64,000 nt of DNA, from NCBI RefSeq assembly GCF_004340665.1, contig NZ_SLWO01000004.1, positions 434,001 to 498,000 on the forward strand. The letters run 5' to 3'. Positions 40,077 to 46,391 of the stretch are shown one piece after another. Within the stretch, counting starts at the first letter, position 1. Each line of letters begins with the position of its first letter. A program made the position numbers and the translations under genes. Origin of the DNA: Pedobacter psychrotolerans. GTDB taxonomy: Bacteria; Bacteroidota; Bacteroidia; Sphingobacteriales; Sphingobacteriaceae. The notes beneath the pieces are model-generated. The model did not search any database, was not told the DNA's origin, and worked only from the letters and a program-made list of their open reading frames with translations.

Positions 40077-41165
40077 ATGAAATTTGGGAAAAATAGAGGT
40101 GATAAGTATCTCAACGAATTTAAAAACATAGACTTTTCCCAAACTGAAGAGTTTCAAACCATCATAGATCTGGCTATTGAAATCTCTGGTAAAAAAATCG
40201 CACTTGTAACTTTTCTGAATGAACAATATACATTAACTAAAGCTGACGATTACCAGGATATTGATCTTATAGCCCTTAAAAACACCTTCAATCACAAAAA
40301 ACAACAATCGCCTGATATATTCATCATTGAAGATACACAAAAAGATCAGCCGTTAGCTCATTACGCTGACGTGAAAGAAAGTAAAGATATTCGCTTTTAT
40401 GCTTATTTACCAATCCTCTCAAAAGATGGATACAAACTTGGCGAACTTTGTCTGTTTGATGCCTCTCCCGGAAATTTGTCGGAGCAACAGCGAAGAATGC
40501 TCAATATGCTTTCTAAACAGATCATCTACTTGATGGAAATGAAAAAAAGTCAAGAGCTGTTAGAAGAAGCGCTTGAGCGTACGGAGCGACAAAAATCTGC
40601 TTTAAAGCAAATTGCCTTTATTCAGTCCCATGAAATCCGGCATCCACTCACCACCATTATGTCTTTAGTTGATCTGGCTAACAAAGGTTCATTCACTTTC
40701 AATCAAAAATGGATTGCTATGCTATATGAGGCGGCAATAACGCTTGATGAACGCATCAGAGCCATTGTTGACGAAACTTACACGGAAAAAGACGTCAAGC
40801 TTGTTCGATTTAACAGGATGGTTCAAGAGATCGAAGATTATGCTATACTTCTTTTAGATGAAGACGGAAAGATAGAAAATTGGAATTTGGGTGCAGAATT
40901 GGTAAAGGGATATAAGCGAGGAGAAATTATTGGCAAAAATTTCAGTGTTTTTTATAGCCCGGAAGATGTTGCTAACGGCAAACCTCTTAGCCTTATTACT
41001 GAGGCAAAGAAACTTGGTAAGGCAAGAGATGAGGGGTGGCGGGTTCGTAAGAATGGGTCTCGTTTTTGGGCCAGCGTACTTATCACAGCAATCCACGATG
41101 TAAACGGCGGAGTAATTGGTTTCACCAAAGTGACAAAAGACCTTGGTGAGCCTGGTATCAGATAG
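40077..41165 (+). CDS. GAF - histidine-box - PAS protein lacking a kinase ATPase domain
   Basis: 362 residues, cytoplasmic. GAF domain residues about 20-150 (FQTIIDLAIEISGKKIALVT, DIRFYAYLPILSKDGYKLGE). A coiled coil (ELLEEALERTERQKSALKQI) leads to a dimerisation/phospho-acceptor segment FIQSHEIRHPLTTIMSLVDL with His185 in an SHEIRHP H-box. A PAS domain follows (about 250-350: YAILLLDEDGKIENWNLGAE, GYKRGEIIGKNFSVFY, NGSRFWASVLITAIHDVNG). It ends with VTKDLGEPGIR and has no HATPase_c domain. It could be phosphorylated by another kinase or serve as an adaptor. A single-domain response regulator follows 129 bp downstream. Confidence 0.85.
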   Translation: MKFGKNRGDKYLNEFKNIDFSQTEEFQTIIDLAIEISGKKIALVTFLNEQYTLTKADDYQDIDLIALKNTFNHKKQQSPDIFIIEDTQKDQPLAHYADVKESKDIRFYAYLPILSKDGYKLGELCLFDASPGNLSEQQRRMLNMLSKQIIYLMEMKKSQELLEEALERTERQKSALKQIAFIQSHEIRHPLTTIMSLVDLANKGSFTFNQKWIAMLYEAAITLDERIRAIVDETYTEKDVKLVRFNRMVQEIEDYAILLLDEDGKIENWNLGAELVKGYKRGEIIGKNFSVFYSPEDVANGKPLSLITEAKKLGKARDEGWRVRKNGSRFWASVLITAIHDVNGGVIGFTKVTKDLGEPGIR

Positions 41166-41294
41166 CAGGATTATTGGCTATCCTACTTAAAATCTATTTT
41201 ATAGACCAATTGTGAAGATGAGATCACGACAAACATTTTAATTATTAAAAAACAAATACTAAGCGGCAAAGGTTACTACATTAACCTTTAACAA

Positions 41295-41693
41295 ATGAAT
41301 AAAACTGTTTTAATGATTGATGATGACCCTTTTGCGTTATTTATTAATCAAGAAATCATACAACCTCTTATTATATCTGCCCCGAAAACATACTTTCTGG
41401 CTAAAGATGCATTGGAATTTTTGAAAGAAAATCACTCTAAAGATACACAGATTCTTATTTTTTTAGATTTAAATATGCCTGAAATGAATGGTTGGGAATT
41501 TCTGGATGAAATTGACAAATCTGATTTGAAGAAAAACATATATGTTGTCATTATTACTTCTTCAATAGATCAGCGGGATTACAAAAAAGCCCAGCAGTAT
41601 CCTAATGTAAGTGATTTTATAGTTAAACCCATCAACCAGCAGGTTATTAAAAACCTAGTGCAAAATCGGCAAATCTCTAATTTCTTCAAATAA
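41295..41693 (+). CDS. single-domain response regulator (CheY-like)
   Basis: 132 residues, one receiver domain. Asp9-Asp11 acidic pocket (LMIDDDPFAL), the phospho-acceptor Asp58 (IFLDLNMPEMNGWEFLDEI), Thr/Ser in VVIITSSIDQ, and Lys in FIVKPINQQ. No output domain, so it acts by protein interaction, as in phosphorelays. It follows the GAF/H-box/PAS gene, its likely partner. Confidence 0.9.
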   Translation: MNKTVLMIDDDPFALFINQEIIQPLIISAPKTYFLAKDALEFLKENHSKDTQILIFLDLNMPEMNGWEFLDEIDKSDLKKNIYVVIITSSIDQRDYKKAQQYPNVSDFIVKPINQQVIKNLVQNRQISNFFK

Positions 41694-41726: not shown

Positions 41727-43466
41727 CTATAATGAAACTGCAAGACCAATATTCCACCCAATCCAACTTCCAGAACTATTATTTCCATCATCGTATCCCT
41801 TTGTTATAGAAGCTTTTTGATCACGATAAACCGAAACATCATTGGACAATCCTTTCAAATAACTATAACCCGGTCCGGCAAAAACTTCTAGCCTGGATAA
41901 GACCTTCAATTGAATGAGCGCTTGTAGCCGGTAGATCAGATCTGCCGTTTTAAAATGATCTGGTGATAAGGATTGAATGGATCCTTCTGCGGCGATGTTA
42001 ACATTTTTGTTCAATAGAAATTCATGACCAAATCCCAATCCGAAAGTAAGTAATCGTGTAGTATCCGAAAAATTTCTACCTACAATCATTAAGGAATAGA
42101 ACTTTGCAGTTCCTGTTTTAAAGGCAATATTGGTATTGACCAGTTCATTGGAATAAAAATTAAACTTTCGGTAGCCATTCTTATAAAGGTTGATTAAACC
42201 AACACCTATACCTGAGGCAGAATCGGCCAGGTTCAGCAAGCCAAACTGAAAGCCATCCATCCTTTTGGCGTAATTCACCAGCCCTGAAATCTGCCCTCCT
42301 TTTAATCGATCACCGACTTTGTTTAGCATGCCTGCCAGTTGTAGCCCACTAATATTTTTACTGGTGTTAACGATTCCGGCCAGCTGTATGCCCTGAACCT
42401 TTTCCCTGGTAATGTTGTAAATGCCTGCAAGTTGTATTCCGTTAACATTCCCATCTACCCTATTTACAATGCCTGCTACTTGTATTCCATCGGTATTGAG
42501 TTTTACCCTATTATAAGTTCCTGATAACTGAAGAGCCTTTACTGAGCCGCCTACTACATTGAATAAGCCAGCGAACTGGATTTTTTTGATGTTACCCTTT
42601 GTTAAATTGAACAGCCCGGCAATCTCAAGGCCATTCGTTCCACCAGTATAACCTCCAAACACATTTAAGGAGACTTTATTGATGATGTTAGAACCCATAC
42701 TGCCATGAGAACTTAAACCCGGCACTAAAGATGCTTGAAAAGGGGTCTGAGCGAAAAAACCTGAAATATTCAGATCCTGTATTCTCTGCCTTGAGGACAA
42801 TAAAAAGCGCCAGATACCTTTCCCACTAAACGCATGCGAAAAAATAGCACTACTATCCTTATTGCGGTCTTTATATTTTGCAGGCTTTATGTTTACATCT
42901 GCCAGGAAAACCAGTGCGCTATCCCGGTAGTTCTCTTTACTGGCCGTTAAGATTACACCTTTTTGCTGGCCTTTAAACCGAAGTTTAAAATAACCATTTT
43001 GATCCGTAAGTGTGGATTGGAGTAAGTGCTTTTCGTAAACGCTGGCTTGTCTGACCATATTCCCGGTTCGCGTATCAATGACGAAGCCGCTAATCATATA
43101 TTCATTTTCAGTATTCTCAATCAGCGATGCCTGAATTGTCAGGCGGTTTTCGGCAGGGCGCAAAATAATATAACCAGCATCTTCCTTGTAATCCACTTTG
43201 CCGCTAAAAAGGCGATCCAAAACTTCCCGCACCTGAATGCCTTTTACGTCCATATCCACCAAGCTATCCTGACTGAACAAAATTCCATTATACGAAAAGT
43301 AAAATTCACCGGCTTTACTTATTAATTGTAAAATATCGCTGATGCGCTTCTTTTTTACATTTAATGTTACGGTTTTCGATAAATTCAACTGGTTATTTAC
43401 TTTGCCAGACTGGGCTGCGCAAAAGGTTGATAATAAAAGAAAAAAGGCAACTAATACGATCTTCAT
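41727..43466 (-). CDS. STN-domain protein with GIQLAGIxN surface repeats
   Basis: 579 residues. Signal peptide (LLSTFCAAQS). STN domain, residues about 33-105 (VKKKRISDILQLISKAGEFY, VDMDVKGIQVREVLDRLF), the domain that contacts FecR-type anti-sigma factors in TonB-dependent transducers. A carboxypeptidase D regulatory-like domain follows (about 124-195; ISGFVIDTRTGNMVRQASVY). Residues 279-431 are nine or ten repeats of 14-16 residues of the form (I/L)QxAGxxNxxxxxxxG, matching the LA_2272-type surface-repeat family, which probably folds as a beta-solenoid or barrel segment. The C-terminus (about 435-579) is beta-rich and ends in an aromatic/hydrophobic strand (WIGWNIGLAVSL), as in outer-membrane barrels. 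There is no TonB plug or receptor barrel. Its start overlaps the FecR stop by one base. Confidence 0.82.
   Translation of the reverse strand: MKIVLVAFFLLLSTFCAAQSGKVNNQLNLSKTVTLNVKKKRISDILQLISKAGEFYFSYNGILFSQDSLVDMDVKGIQVREVLDRLFSGKVDYKEDAGYIILRPAENRLTIQASLIENTENEYMISGFVIDTRTGNMVRQASVYEKHLLQSTLTDQNGYFKLRFKGQQKGVILTASKENYRDSALVFLADVNIKPAKYKDRNKDSSAIFSHAFSGKGIWRFLLSSRQRIQDLNISGFFAQTPFQASLVPGLSSHGSMGSNIINKVSLNVFGGYTGGTNGLEIAGLFNLTKGNIKKIQFAGLFNVVGGSVKALQLSGTYNRVKLNTDGIQVAGIVNRVDGNVNGIQLAGIYNITREKVQGIQLAGIVNTSKNISGLQLAGMLNKVGDRLKGGQISGLVNYAKRMDGFQFGLLNLADSASGIGVGLINLYKNGYRKFNFYSNELVNTNIAFKTGTAKFYSLMIVGRNFSDTTRLLTFGLGFGHEFLLNKNVNIAAEGSIQSLSPDHFKTADLIYRLQALIQLKVLSRLEVFAGPGYSYLKGLSNDVSVYRDQKASITKGYDDGNNSSGSWIGWNIGLAVSL
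42174..42632 (-). repeat. coding tandem repeat, ~48-bp units
   Basis: Encodes the 16-residue repeats at residues 279-431. Units are similar in protein (consensus IQLAGIxNxxxxxxxG) but diverged in DNA, so the array is old rather than a recent slippage product. Confidence 0.75.
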
Positions 43467-44419
43467 TAATCTTTGTAAGTGAGTAAAATCTCGTTTCCTT
43501 TACGAGATAATTTTAGATCTAATGTTTCACAGATCACCCGCAAATTTTCATTAACGGAGCCCAACTTTAATGTCGTGCTGATGCTCAGGTGCTTCACATG
43601 TTCGTCAAGTATGATATTGGTATTATAAGCTTCATTCAATGCATTTACTAATTTTAACAGGGCGATATTATTCGCCTGGAATACATGAGATCGGTAATAG
43701 TTGTACAGCTGATCGATACTTTGTTCCTTAATTAATTTTTTCATATTGCTGGTAACCAACATCCTCTCGCCATGGTAAAGGTTCAGTTCCTCATTACCAA
43801 GCCGCACCTTTACGATACCCGTTTCCACATTTAATTCAGTACTATTCTTAGCGTGCCTGATATTGAAAGAGGTACCCACTACCTCTACCATAAGCTGGTC
43901 AATATGGATGATAAAAGGGTGGGTTTTATCTTTGGCTACTTCAAAAAAGACATCACCCTTTTCCATATTTATTACCCTATTTTCCTTAAAATCAGATGCG
44001 TAACTAATTTTACTATGCTTATTCAGCGTGAGGACAGATCCATCAGGTAAATGATCATTACGCACCTGATTTAAAGCAGTTAATACGACATAATTATCCG
44101 GGCCATATGCATCGTACATTAGCCAGCAGCCAACAGCTACAACGAATACCGCAGCCACCTTTAACCATATAGTCTGGAGCTTCCAGGTCTTTATCTTTTC
44201 AGTGTTTTGATTTTCTCTTCTTTTCTTAAAGCTTTCCCATGCCTGATTTTCGTCCCTTTTCTTTCCATTTTTTAGGGTATCGCTTAACTGCCATATCGTT
44301 TTAAGCTGAGCAAAATATTTCTGATTAGCCTCAGCAGCATCAAGCCAATACCTAACTTGTTTATCTTCCTCCTCACTGCTTTCTTTCAGAAGAAATTTAG
44401 CCAATAGTTCATCATCCAT
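43466..44419 (-). CDS. FecR-family anti-sigma factor
   Basis: 317 residues. An N-terminal cytoplasmic DUF4880-type region (LLAKFLLKESSEEEDKQVRY) binds the sigma factor; one membrane helix lies near residues 87-104 (LKVAAVFVVAVGCWLMY); the periplasmic FecR domain follows (LPDGSVLTLNKHSKISYASD, GDVFFEVAKDKTHPFIIHID, VVGTSFNIRH), then a C-terminal STN-like/DUF4974 domain (NALNEAYNTNIILDEHVKHL). It transmits a surface signal to the ECF sigma factor encoded 17 bp upstream, and its stop overlaps the STN-repeat gene (TAATG). Confidence 0.92.
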   Translation of the reverse strand: MDDELLAKFLLKESSEEEDKQVRYWLDAAEANQKYFAQLKTIWQLSDTLKNGKKRDENQAWESFKKRRENQNTEKIKTWKLQTIWLKVAAVFVVAVGCWLMYDAYGPDNYVVLTALNQVRNDHLPDGSVLTLNKHSKISYASDFKENRVINMEKGDVFFEVAKDKTHPFIIHIDQLMVEVVGTSFNIRHAKNSTELNVETGIVKVRLGNEELNLYHGERMLVTSNMKKLIKEQSIDQLYNYYRSHVFQANNIALLKLVNALNEAYNTNIILDEHVKHLSISTTLKLGSVNENLRVICETLDLKLSRKGNEILLTYKD

Positions 44420-44436
44420 GCCTCTTATTCATTAGT

Positions 44437-45033
44437 TTATAAAAACTTTAAATACCATAATCCAATTAAGAACAGAATCAGGAAATCAGCCAGCCGTAGC
44501 CGTAATATTTTCAATGCTTTTCCCATCTGGTTTTCTACGGTCTTGATCGACAGCCCTAAGAGCTCTGCAATCTCGCGGTATTTCAACTCTTCGTACCTGC
44601 TCAGTTGGAAAATGGTGCGGCATTGCTCAGGTAACTGATTAAGTGCTACACCTAAGCGCTCTTGTAGTTCTACAAGTTCTATTTTAGCAGCTGCAGATTC
44701 GTGTTCAGTATCCATCGTATGTAAAGTAAATTCCTGATATTTAATCTTGGTTTTTTCTTGTTTAAGGTAGTTGAGGCTATCATGGTATACACACCTGTAA
44801 AGGTAAGCTTTTATAGAGTGTATCTGGAGATTTTGCCTCTTTTCCCAGAACTTTAAAAACATGCCCTGGACAATTTCTTCCGCAAGATCTTCATCTTTCA
44901 GAATTACCAGGGCATAGGCATGCAAAGCATTATAGTGCGTTTTAAATAACTGCTCAAATGACGTATCATCATTGTATCGATACCTGCTCCCGGAAGCTTC
45001 CGCTGTAAATTCCACTGCGTTAAAATTTCTCAA
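44437..45033 (-). CDS. ECF sigma-70 factor, Bacteroidota FecI-like type
   Basis: 198 residues. Sigma region 2 (FEQLFKTHYNALHAYALVIL, DEDLAEEIVQGMFLKFWEKR, IKAYLYRCVYHDSLNYLKQE) and region 4 (LNQLPEQCRTIFQLSRYEEL, YREIAELLGLSIKTVENQMG). The C-terminus ends in a hydrophobic tail (LILFLIGLWYLKFL), common in this sub-family. No ATG is available at the N-terminus: TTG 45033 gives the longest form and GTG 45015 a shorter one. It directs polymerase to its own locus once FecR releases it. Confidence 0.92.
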   Translation of the reverse strand: MRNFNAVEFTAEASGSRYRYNDDTSFEQLFKTHYNALHAYALVILKDEDLAEEIVQGMFLKFWEKRQNLQIHSIKAYLYRCVYHDSLNYLKQEKTKIKYQEFTLHTMDTEHESAAAKIELVELQERLGVALNQLPEQCRTIFQLSRYEELKYREIAELLGLSIKTVENQMGKALKILRLRLADFLILFLIGLWYLKFL

Positions 45034-45100
45034 ATATAGTAATAGAAGGTTTGTAGAAGACCATTTGAATTGGAATGCTAGACTTACACAATCAAATTCT

Positions 45101-46141
45101 TTAGAAATTAACGGCTAAACCACCTGTATAGCCAAAGAACATGCCGTGTAAAGTACTATTATCGCTATCCCAGGCGTGTAAATAGTGTTTCTGAAGTGCT
45201 TTACCTTCTGTTGTATTTGTTGAGATTAAGTTAAAAGACGGACCAGCGAATATTTCCAGATGGTTACTAATTCTCCATGCAGGAAACAGTTGCATAGTGG
45301 ACTTAAAATAGTTGCCTTTCTTAAAATTCTGCAATGAACTTGCGGTTAGCTCGGTATGAAGTCTGAAATGCTGAGACTGAAAAAAATTTGCACCAAATCC
45401 TGCTTCAAGAGCATAGATCGCATCTTTGTTTTTAAAGTTATACCCTGCACCAATAATGCCATACAACACCCTTCCTCCTGAGCGGAAAGTAGCCATGGTA
45501 GTTAGGTTCTGATCTGTTGTGAAAGCCACACTTTTTTCTCCATCTTTAACAATATTGATAATTCCGATCGGATAGTCACTGCTATCAGCCACATTAATAA
45601 AGCCTGCAAGCTGAACACCTTTTACTTTTTTTGCGATATTGATAAAGCCTGAAATTTGTGCTCCTTTCACATCTGCTGCCTTGTTTAGAAAACCGGCGGC
45701 TTGAACTGCTGAAACGTTTCGAGCAGTCCAGTTCAAAAACCCCGCGAGTTGTATACCGCTATTACCCTTCGATATATTGGAAAAACCAGCCAAAGCAGAT
45801 CTGCTATCATCTCCATAGGTATTGATAAAGCCAGCAAATTGAGTACCTTTTGCTTTACCTCCAATATGATTGGAAAACCCTGCTAATTGAACGCCATATG
45901 TGTTTTTATGTATAATATTGGATATGCCAGCGAAAGAAAGTCCCTTTTCTGTAGCTGAAACACCTACCAGGGCATTACATGAAAAAACATTGGTATCAAG
46001 CGCTGCATGCCTTCCGTTTGTACTTACAGGATATACTAAACCTATATTTACACTTGTCTTTCTATGATTTTGCGAAAAGCTGTTTAGCGTATTGCCTAAT
46101 AATATAATCAGGCCTAATACTAAATACCTTAACTTTTCCAT
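45101..46141 (-). CDS. second GVQLAGFxN surface-repeat protein
   Basis: 346 residues from ATG 46141, which begins a good signal peptide (MEKLRYLVLGLIILL, ending SFSQ). An ATG 48 bases upstream is in frame but gives a poor leader. About eight repeats of 14-16 residues (VQLAGFSNHIGGKAKG, IQLAGFLNWTARNVSA, AQISGFINIAKKVKG) are the same type as in the 41.7-kb protein, but without the STN or carboxypeptidase-like domains. The C-terminal 140 residues are beta-rich and end in an aromatic strand (FFGYTGGLAVNF), suggesting outer-membrane insertion. It lies 67 bp upstream of the sigma gene in the same direction, so it is probably part of the same four-gene unit. Confidence 0.78.
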   Translation of the reverse strand: MEKLRYLVLGLIILLGNTLNSFSQNHRKTSVNIGLVYPVSTNGRHAALDTNVFSCNALVGVSATEKGLSFAGISNIIHKNTYGVQLAGFSNHIGGKAKGTQFAGFINTYGDDSRSALAGFSNISKGNSGIQLAGFLNWTARNVSAVQAAGFLNKAADVKGAQISGFINIAKKVKGVQLAGFINVADSSDYPIGIINIVKDGEKSVAFTTDQNLTTMATFRSGGRVLYGIIGAGYNFKNKDAIYALEAGFGANFFQSQHFRLHTELTASSLQNFKKGNYFKSTMQLFPAWRISNHLEIFAGPSFNLISTNTTEGKALQKHYLHAWDSDNSTLHGMFFGYTGGLAVNF

Positions 46142-46391
46142 AATGTTCGCATTTAAACTGCACTTAATTGTTTTTAAAGTTGTTTTCATTTCTCGTTATT
46201 TTAAAATGAGACAACGAAGTGCAGACTTACCCCTATGTGATGAGAAAAAATATTTATTTTGCAATTGGAAGGACCAATCAATGCAGAGAAATGATCGTGT
46301 CATTATCACTCTTAAAAAAAATATTAAGTAGCAATATGAGAGTAATGAAGATTGCAATCCACCAACAGTTGTTAGTGTTATTGCTTTTTTA

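Follow-up and report, generated by a model that had tools for sequence, protein, structure and literature searches.

What does a cell-surface signalling circuit sense, and what does it switch on, when its outer-membrane component is not a TonB receptor? In circuits of the FecI/FecR/FecA type, such as FoxI/FoxR/FoxA, an extracytoplasmic function (ECF) sigma factor, a FecR protein with an STN-like C-terminal domain and an outer-membrane protein bearing an STN domain are encoded together. The same three components are found in the soil bacterium Pedobacter psychrotolerans, in the stretch of 64,000 nucleotides analysed here (positions 434,001 to 498,000 of contig NZ_SLWO01000004.1, hereafter the window), but the STN protein of the window, called STN-REP below, lacks the plug and barrel of a TonB receptor and is predicted to carry an 8-stranded barrel and a repeat solenoid in their place. 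A second repeat protein, REP2, is encoded beside it. It is likely that this locus is a FecIRA-type cell-surface signalling circuit with a non-TonB transducer and a promoter of its own; this assessment applies to the circuit and the promoter and not to the nature of the signal.

The gene row and its predicted transducer

The four genes all lie on the minus strand and are transcribed in the order REP2, sigma, FecR, STN-REP. The REP2 gene (45101..46189, or from an alternative start at 46141, which by eye gives a typical signal peptide) is separated by 67 bases from the gene of the ECF sigma factor (44437..45033, TTG start), which is followed after 17 bases by the gene of the FecR-type anti-sigma factor (43466..44419). 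The latter shares one base with the STN-REP gene (41727..43466). The initial annotation of the window had placed the four genes in the same way and had proposed that the sigma factor, FecR and the STN protein are coupled, and both domain profiles and gene order agree with it. A scan for sigma-70-type promoters and terminators gave counts at background, with no terminator-like site between REP2 and sigma on their strand. None of the plasmid records matches the locus, which in the window consists of REP2 and the three signalling genes only.

The sigma factor matches TIGR02985 with 166.2 bits (cutoff 126.4) and scores best among the 33 matches to this family in the 5.19-Mb host genome, 10 of which are over the cutoff. 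The anti-sigma factor has a cytoplasmic N-terminus, a membrane helix at about residues 83-103 (by eye), a FecR domain (PF04773, 65.8 bits) and a FecR_C domain (PF16344, 25.6 bits), both matches being above cutoff. It is related to the solved anti-sigma domains 4m0n (2e-15) and 4m0h (3.7e-15) and weakly to 6ovk (0.057).

STN-REP, a protein of 579 residues, is predicted from its domains and its model to be the outer-membrane transducer of the circuit. Its N-terminal arm consists of an STN signalling domain (about residues 32-104; 43155..43373) and a CarboxypepD_reg-like domain (residues 122-188; 42903..43103). In the window protein the STN and CarbopepD_reg_2 profiles score 21.0 and 29.5 bits, below their Pfam cutoffs of 28.4 and 32.2; among 50 aligned relatives, STN (PF07660) is matched at E<=1e-3 in 48 and CarbopepD_reg_2 in all 50, and the model has the order of strands and helices of an STN domain. 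Foldseek gives weak matches to the N0 domain of PilQ and to a chain of the Dot/Icm outer-membrane complex (E 0.04-0.1), and the CarboxypepD part matches a domain of a SusC homolog (9hfj, E 1.4e-5). This front end is the same as that of the SusC-type transducers of Bacteroidota, in which STN and CarboxypepD domains are followed by plug and barrel; everything behind it differs. The N-terminus of STN-REP also has weak matches to frames of about 1100-1240 residues.

No Pfam profile of a plug or a TonB-receptor barrel matches STN-REP at E<=5. AlphaFold2 models were built from 50 sequences for STN-REP and 44 for REP2. The STN-REP model has a mean predicted local distance difference test score (pLDDT) of 75.7 and a predicted template modelling score (pTM) of 0.50; its linker (residues 190-262) falls below 50 and residues 290-540 are mostly above 85. 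REP2 reaches a pLDDT of 83.7 and a pTM of 0.61. The C-terminus of STN-REP (residues 429-579; 41730..42182) resembles 8-stranded barrels in VIA-align, namely the designed barrel 6x9z (Z 16.1, root-mean-square deviation (rmsd) 2.2 over 113 aligned residues) and OprF, 4rlc (Z 15.7, rmsd 2.5, 123 residues); that of REP2 (residues 216-362; 45104..45544) likewise resembles the OprF barrel (Z 15.7, rmsd 2.3, 121 residues). The structure searches list 8-stranded barrels, and the lists do not exhaust the families. Both repeat proteins are thus predicted to end in a small OmpA-like transmembrane barrel of eight strands, not in a TonB-receptor barrel. The earlier statement that the STN protein is no TonB receptor is borne out by these searches, and what had been described as a beta-rich C-terminus is beta-stranded in the models as well and can be specified as a small outer-membrane barrel. 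Decay of a former TonB receptor was considered as an origin of STN-REP and rejected: the STN-REP frame is present in all 80 of the loci described below, and no plug or receptor-barrel domain was matched.

The barrels are preceded by repeats, at residues 263-428 of STN-REP (42183..42680) and about 66-215 of REP2 (45545..45994). A custom repeat profile scores eight repeats in each protein, spaced by 15-16 residues, rather than the nine or ten counted initially; a ninth is degenerate by eye. The repeat type is that of the LA_2272 surface repeat proteins (NF047436, cutoff 25 bits), with STN-REP over the cutoff at 31.1 bits and REP2 far below it at 8.2 bits. Unlike those proteins, STN-REP has an STN-CarboxypepD arm and is genetically coupled to a sigma factor and FecR. 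The literature that turned up on LA_2272 concerns Leptospira. That REP2 is a second protein of the same type holds for its eight repeats and for its similarity to the repeat-barrel half of STN-REP (phmmer 3e-35), and not for the family cutoff.

Among relatives the number of repeats varies by single units, from 4 to 11, which together with the spacing of 15-16 residues fits a solenoid. The repeats of both proteins look like a beta-solenoid in the models as well. Residues 46-212 of REP2 match beta-helices, among them LpxD (Z 13.6, rmsd 9.6), the Dettilon tailspike (Z 9.2, rmsd 3.5, 174 residues) and 4wa0 (Z 9.0, rmsd 3.5, 149 residues); for repeat proteins such matches may reflect only a common arrangement. 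The possibility that the repeats are strands of one large barrel was considered; variation by single units and the short spacing fit an antiparallel meander poorly, and the models place a separate 8-stranded barrel behind the repeats. Because a barrel with an even number of strands and a periplasmic C-terminus has its N-terminus in the periplasm too, the repeats should face the periplasm, beside the STN arm. This predicted OmpA-like topology argues against their initial description as surface structures.

The relay itself is of a known cell-surface signalling type; the promoter described below is new here. A literature search, with many subscription papers outside its coverage, gave no description of it or of an STN-repeat-barrel transducer. 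The initial claim that no system of this form had been described was nevertheless too strong. The PUMA3 system VreA/VreR/VreI of P. aeruginosa has an STN receptor that lacks a barrel, is not a TonB-dependent receptor and is accompanied, like STN-REP, by a sigma factor and an anti-sigma factor (PMC2729926). VreA is a small, largely soluble periplasmic protein that ends in a TolA/TonB-like domain, whereas STN-REP is a predicted integral outer-membrane protein of another fold and from another phylum. VreA is the one precedent found, a partial one of different build.

Recurrence and the candidate promoter

A search of contigs with the single STN-REP sequence gave nothing. An alignment-based search of named genomes succeeded and found 257 relatives in 298 candidate stretches, the best 80 of which were retained. 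These span Pedobacter, Daejeonella, Arcticibacter, Hufsiella, Desertivirga, Mucilaginibacter, Dyadobacter, Chitinophaga, Terrimonas, metagenome-assembled genomes and others. The FecR gene lies directly upstream of STN-REP in 80 of the 80 named loci and the sigma gene precedes it in 79, the only exception (L122) being cut by a contig end. As the 80 loci are the closest relatives, 32 further loci were picked by hand from a search of the class, in which 121 of 395 genomes match STN-REP or REP2 at E<=1e-15; they were chosen where the match reaches the STN part or the frame is long enough to hold one, and they represent 28 families, that of the window included. STN-REP and an adjacent FecR gene are present in 32/32 of these class-wide loci and a sigma gene in 30 (29 by script, L195 being added on recheck; none was detected in L189 and L200). 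A sigma and a FecR gene also stand directly before the STN-repeat gene in all 35 loci of the genus and class that were read for STN and repeats, a set which partly overlaps the named genomes; in one of the 35 (L052) the STN-REP frame is broken. The recurrence that the initial annotation had called for is thus found well beyond the genus, and chance is excluded as its explanation.

With paralogues included, 92 of 145 genus genomes hold an STN-REP homologue at E<=1e-50. A second, paralogous sigma/FecR/STN-repeat system without REP2 nearby, called type B here, occurs in L047 and L050-L060, and several genomes carry both. STN-repeat genes interrupted by stop codons were seen twice, one of type B (G006:C1:213713-214741) and one similar to type A (G516:C1:3994108-3995488).

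Upstream of REP2 a conserved motif of the general form TAGGGGTA-N12-GTTGTC is found. In the window it reads TAGGGGTA-N12-GTTGTCTCA (46207..46235, minus strand) and is predicted to be an ECF-type promoter heading the whole row. Exact GGGGT-N14-TTGTC is present in 46 of the 64 regions upstream of REP2 that were compared, from 63 loci plus the window, and is embedded in CGTAGGGGTA...GTTGTCTCATTT. A 32-bp profile of these, at a score of at least 13, matches the 80 loci 64 times; when the bases of each locus were shuffled once, two matches were left. A core pattern has 58 matches in the 1.06 Mb of the named loci (53 at REP2, 1 at a TonB receptor, 4 at none of the tested gene classes) and 43 in the 0.41 Mb of the class-wide loci (10 at sigma, 8 at a TonB receptor, 5 at REP2, 5 at a GIN-domain protein, 4 at FecR, 11 at none), and the reversed pattern has none in either set. 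Where REP2 is relocated or missing, the motif may precede a REP2 gene downstream of STN-REP, the sigma gene, the TonB receptor or the GIN gene. The matches at sigma put the motif before the circuit's own sigma gene in 10/32 class-wide loci; the same is seen in G442. The first target of the promoter in the window is a second repeat-barrel protein, in contrast to the FecI/FecR/FecA circuits.

The exact sequence TAGGGGT-N13-GTTGTC occurs once in the host genome, at REP2. When two mismatches are allowed there are 10 matches against 33 for the reversed control, and for this reason no further members of a regulon are claimed in the host. In the 145 genus genomes the strict motif has 81 matches in 54 genomes (control 0). 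An STN-REP homologue, type B paralogues included, is present in 52 of these 54 and in 40 of the 91 genomes without the motif (Fisher p 1.7e-11, shared ancestry not being corrected for). Among 296 genomes of the phylum there are five strict matches in five genomes (control 0), and all five (G000, G415, G049, G097 and G180) have an STN-REP match. The motif lies at REP2 in G000, G415 and G180 and before a small outer-membrane-like protein in G049; in G097 it lies inside the circuit's gene row and, by script, not directly before a gene start. The ECF motif reported from Flavobacterium (PMC9723704), which has a CGT box and lies upstream of type IX secretion genes, belongs to a different regulon.

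Twenty of the 81 strict matches in the genus were fetched, mostly away from the REP2 locus. The first gene behind the motif encodes an outer-membrane barrel of about 189 residues in eight cases, a lipid A acyltransferase in five (three of these lie about 330 bases downstream), a DUF6268 protein in two and REP2 in two; the remaining cases are a sigma-FecR pair, another TonB receptor and one match without a gene. One representative each of the barrel (PF13568), the acyltransferase (PF03279) and the DUF6268 protein (PF19783) was checked against Pfam and the others were assigned by visible similarity. A further 16 regions of relatives were taken: 13 had matches to a looser exact pattern, one of them at a locus that holds the receptor too, and the other 3 were chosen for the receptor itself. 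There the motif precedes the 189-residue barrel in six regions (and on reading in a seventh, L230), the circuit-type TonB receptor in four, and in single cases an acyltransferase, outer-membrane-like proteins of 311 and 206 residues and an alpha/beta hydrolase (by eye); in L229 it was not found. The looser pattern has 31 matches, spread over 19 of 59 relatives, and its reversed control has 14; single unlinked matches of this kind consequently need support.

The proposed signal and response

From these observations a course of signalling can be proposed. The transducer would consist of the periplasmic STN-CarboxypepD arm and the repeat solenoid, carried by the OmpA-like barrel. In the resting state the sigma factor would be held by FecR, whose STN-like C-terminal domain would be in contact with the STN domain. 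The analogy is with FoxA, the signalling domain of which is reported to contact the C-terminal domain of FoxR (PMC11637429). A change in the outer membrane felt by the barrel and solenoid would alter this contact, and FecR would be processed and the sigma factor freed, as in known systems. The free sigma factor would then read promoters of the TAGGGGTA-N12-GTTGTC form, as comparative genomics suggests, and drive REP2 and, by read-through, sigma, FecR and STN-REP, resulting in positive autoregulation. REP2, in effect a stand-alone copy of the outer-membrane half of the sensor, would be the effector and might also act back on the sensor as its partner. Judging from its promoter, REP2 is probably an output of the sigma factor and the main one in the host genome.

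In relatives the circuit seems to switch on outer-membrane and lipid genes. Since the promoter there heads genes for the receptor, small barrels and lipid A acyltransferase, and the operon gains GIN-domain and hydroxylase-DUF4833 proteins, the signal might be the state of the outer membrane or of its lipids, to which we give slightly less than an even chance. This is the weakest step of the proposal and draws on the kinds of target genes in relatives. Still more tentatively, the circuit could represent an outer-membrane surveillance system spread throughout the Bacteroidia, a functional analogue of RpoE assembled from components of nutrient-receptor signalling. The barrel, OmpA-like and carrying its solenoid in the periplasm, would register the condition of the outer membrane or its lipids. 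It would relay this by way of the STN arm and FecR to a dedicated sigma factor, which through a promoter code of its own would induce outer-membrane barrel proteins and the acylation of lipid A as well as the hydroxylation of lipids. The RpoE-type envelope-stress systems might share this logic, the state of the outer membrane being sensed and outer-membrane genes being induced, and their sensor, type of anti-sigma factor and promoter are unrelated to those of the window circuit.

That the signal is a nutrient appears rather unlikely, and so does the specific form of this idea, which concerns the signal and leaves the circuit as described: the STN domain would have moved to a companion barrel, and a nearby TonB receptor without STN would bind the nutrient and signal to STN-REP. 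A receptor of about 780 residues with CarboxypepD, plug and barrel domains and no STN match (two representatives were scanned) does accompany the circuit. It occurs in 13 of the 80 named loci, mostly of Chitinophagaceae type, and lies directly after STN-REP in 11 of them; at E<1e-100 it is found in 18 of the 32 class-wide loci, and in eight of the 32 the promoter precedes it. At E<=1e-60, 25 of 59 relatives hold it, some in multiple copies. A copy at E<1e-200 is present in five genomes of the genus; in four of them the receptor gene lies away from STN-REP and has the motif 14-18 bases in front of it, G022 being the exception (weaker matches in G005, G010 and G016 are left out of this count). 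On the other side, the host genome has no relative of this receptor at E<=1e-60 (17 of 88 candidates were scored), 28 of 36 genus genomes in the receptor search lack it, many of which retain the circuit, and the putative regulon includes lipid A acyltransferase and small barrels. The initial suggestion that something other than a nutrient receptor is sensed therefore agrees with the host genome and is put in question by many of the class-wide loci and by the promoter found in trans. The family of this receptor was seen beside the circuit in several families (L122-L145, L061 and L062), with L129, L134 and L136 lacking it.

The initial annotation had suggested another explanation, in which REP2 and STN-REP form an adhesive or surface assembly of repeats whose own state is sensed. 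The repeat-barrel half common to both proteins, the finding that, in the 80 named loci, REP2 is the gene most often headed by the promoter and the frequency in the operon of GIN-domain proteins, which Pfam lists as putative adhesins, all speak for it; the topology inferred from the models, which puts the repeats in the periplasm, and the presence of REP2 in only 9/32 class-wide loci make it improbable. We regard it as equally doubtful that the motif serves a different sigma factor or acts as an operator, the circuit controlling something else. The 33 TIGR02985-type matches of the host genome could supply such a sigma factor, the motif is still present in two genomes with no detected circuit (G496 and G495) and many circuit loci lack it, but the motif and STN-REP co-occur and the motif stands before the circuit's own sigma gene in the class-wide loci mentioned above.

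For the likely reading, a FecIRA-type circuit with a non-TonB transducer and its own promoter, there are also observations that weigh against it. The solenoid matches are weak (rmsd 9.6 for LpxD, Z 9.2 for the tailspike), and at the pTM values given above the domain arrangement is poorly fixed in both models. Counted by locus, the core precedes a tested gene class in no more than 54 of the 80 named loci and 19 of the 32 from the class-wide set, and the looser pattern has the background already described. A close STN-REP, similar to type A, is carried by 70 genus genomes, 50 with the strict motif and 20 without, and at least eight class genomes of the phylum sample that have STN-REP are without it (G111, G130, G162, G223, G238, G250, G277 and G325). 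In the 12 type B loci without REP2 the core lies at -114 from the sigma start in one, about 2.6-2.8 kb upstream in six and is absent in five. In G496 (L293) the promoter and REP2 are kept with no sigma, FecR or STN-REP gene in the 19 kb fetched. The host promoter, finally, stands only at REP2, so that the regulon of lipid and barrel-protein genes is known from relatives only. On balance the initial observation is confirmed and its interpretation partly supported. The locus shows that TonB receptors are no fixed part of the STN-FecR-sigma relay. For a widespread ECF sigma factor, comparative genomics alone has here led to the prediction of both a promoter and a small regulon; if the envelope reading is true, an outer-membrane homeostasis system for the Bacteroidia would be added.

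Neighbouring genes and related loci

Within the fetched stretches of the 80 named loci a REP2-type protein was found in 64, DUF4833 in 34 and a fatty acid hydroxylase in 32. In Sphingobacteriaceae REP2 mostly precedes sigma, and the next genes often encode a GIN-domain protein (PF10988) as well as a fusion of fatty acid hydroxylase and DUF4833 (PF04116 and PF16117 in the one representative scanned with Pfam). The best NCBIfam match of the fusion is the ornithine lipid hydroxylase OlsE, far under the cutoff. Such fusions, like GIN-domain (DUF2807) proteins, are recurrent neighbours of the circuit in L028-L060 and L066-L145, and in some species the hydroxylase half is lost or shortened with DUF4833 retained. 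The sole DUF4833 match of the host genome (L294, C6:188500-196000) is a protein of 429 residues that by eye starts like a CDP-alcohol phosphatidyltransferase; by eye it adjoins hydroxylase-like and PAP2-like genes, and the promoter core was not found there.

In a clade of six type B loci, the variant of the motif 2.6-2.8 kb upstream heads a row that ends with a short-chain dehydrogenase/reductase (SDR) gene, sigma, FecR and STN-REP. The row includes an epimerase/reductase, the best NCBIfam matches being HpnA, SdmB and OleD, all under cutoff. SDR and epimerase genes occur within the row in six type B loci, five of which show an RND/MMPL-like transporter (by eye) on the opposite strand.

G496 and G495 are possibly remnants of the circuit. 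In the latter (L295; 87% complete) the promoter lies on a 15.7-kb contig on which none of the circuit's genes was detected. In the window itself, a PAS-type sensor-like protein and a single-domain response regulator (by eye; 40077-41693, plus strand) converge on the end of the STN-REP gene, a pair that is absent from the recurrent neighbours of the circuit.

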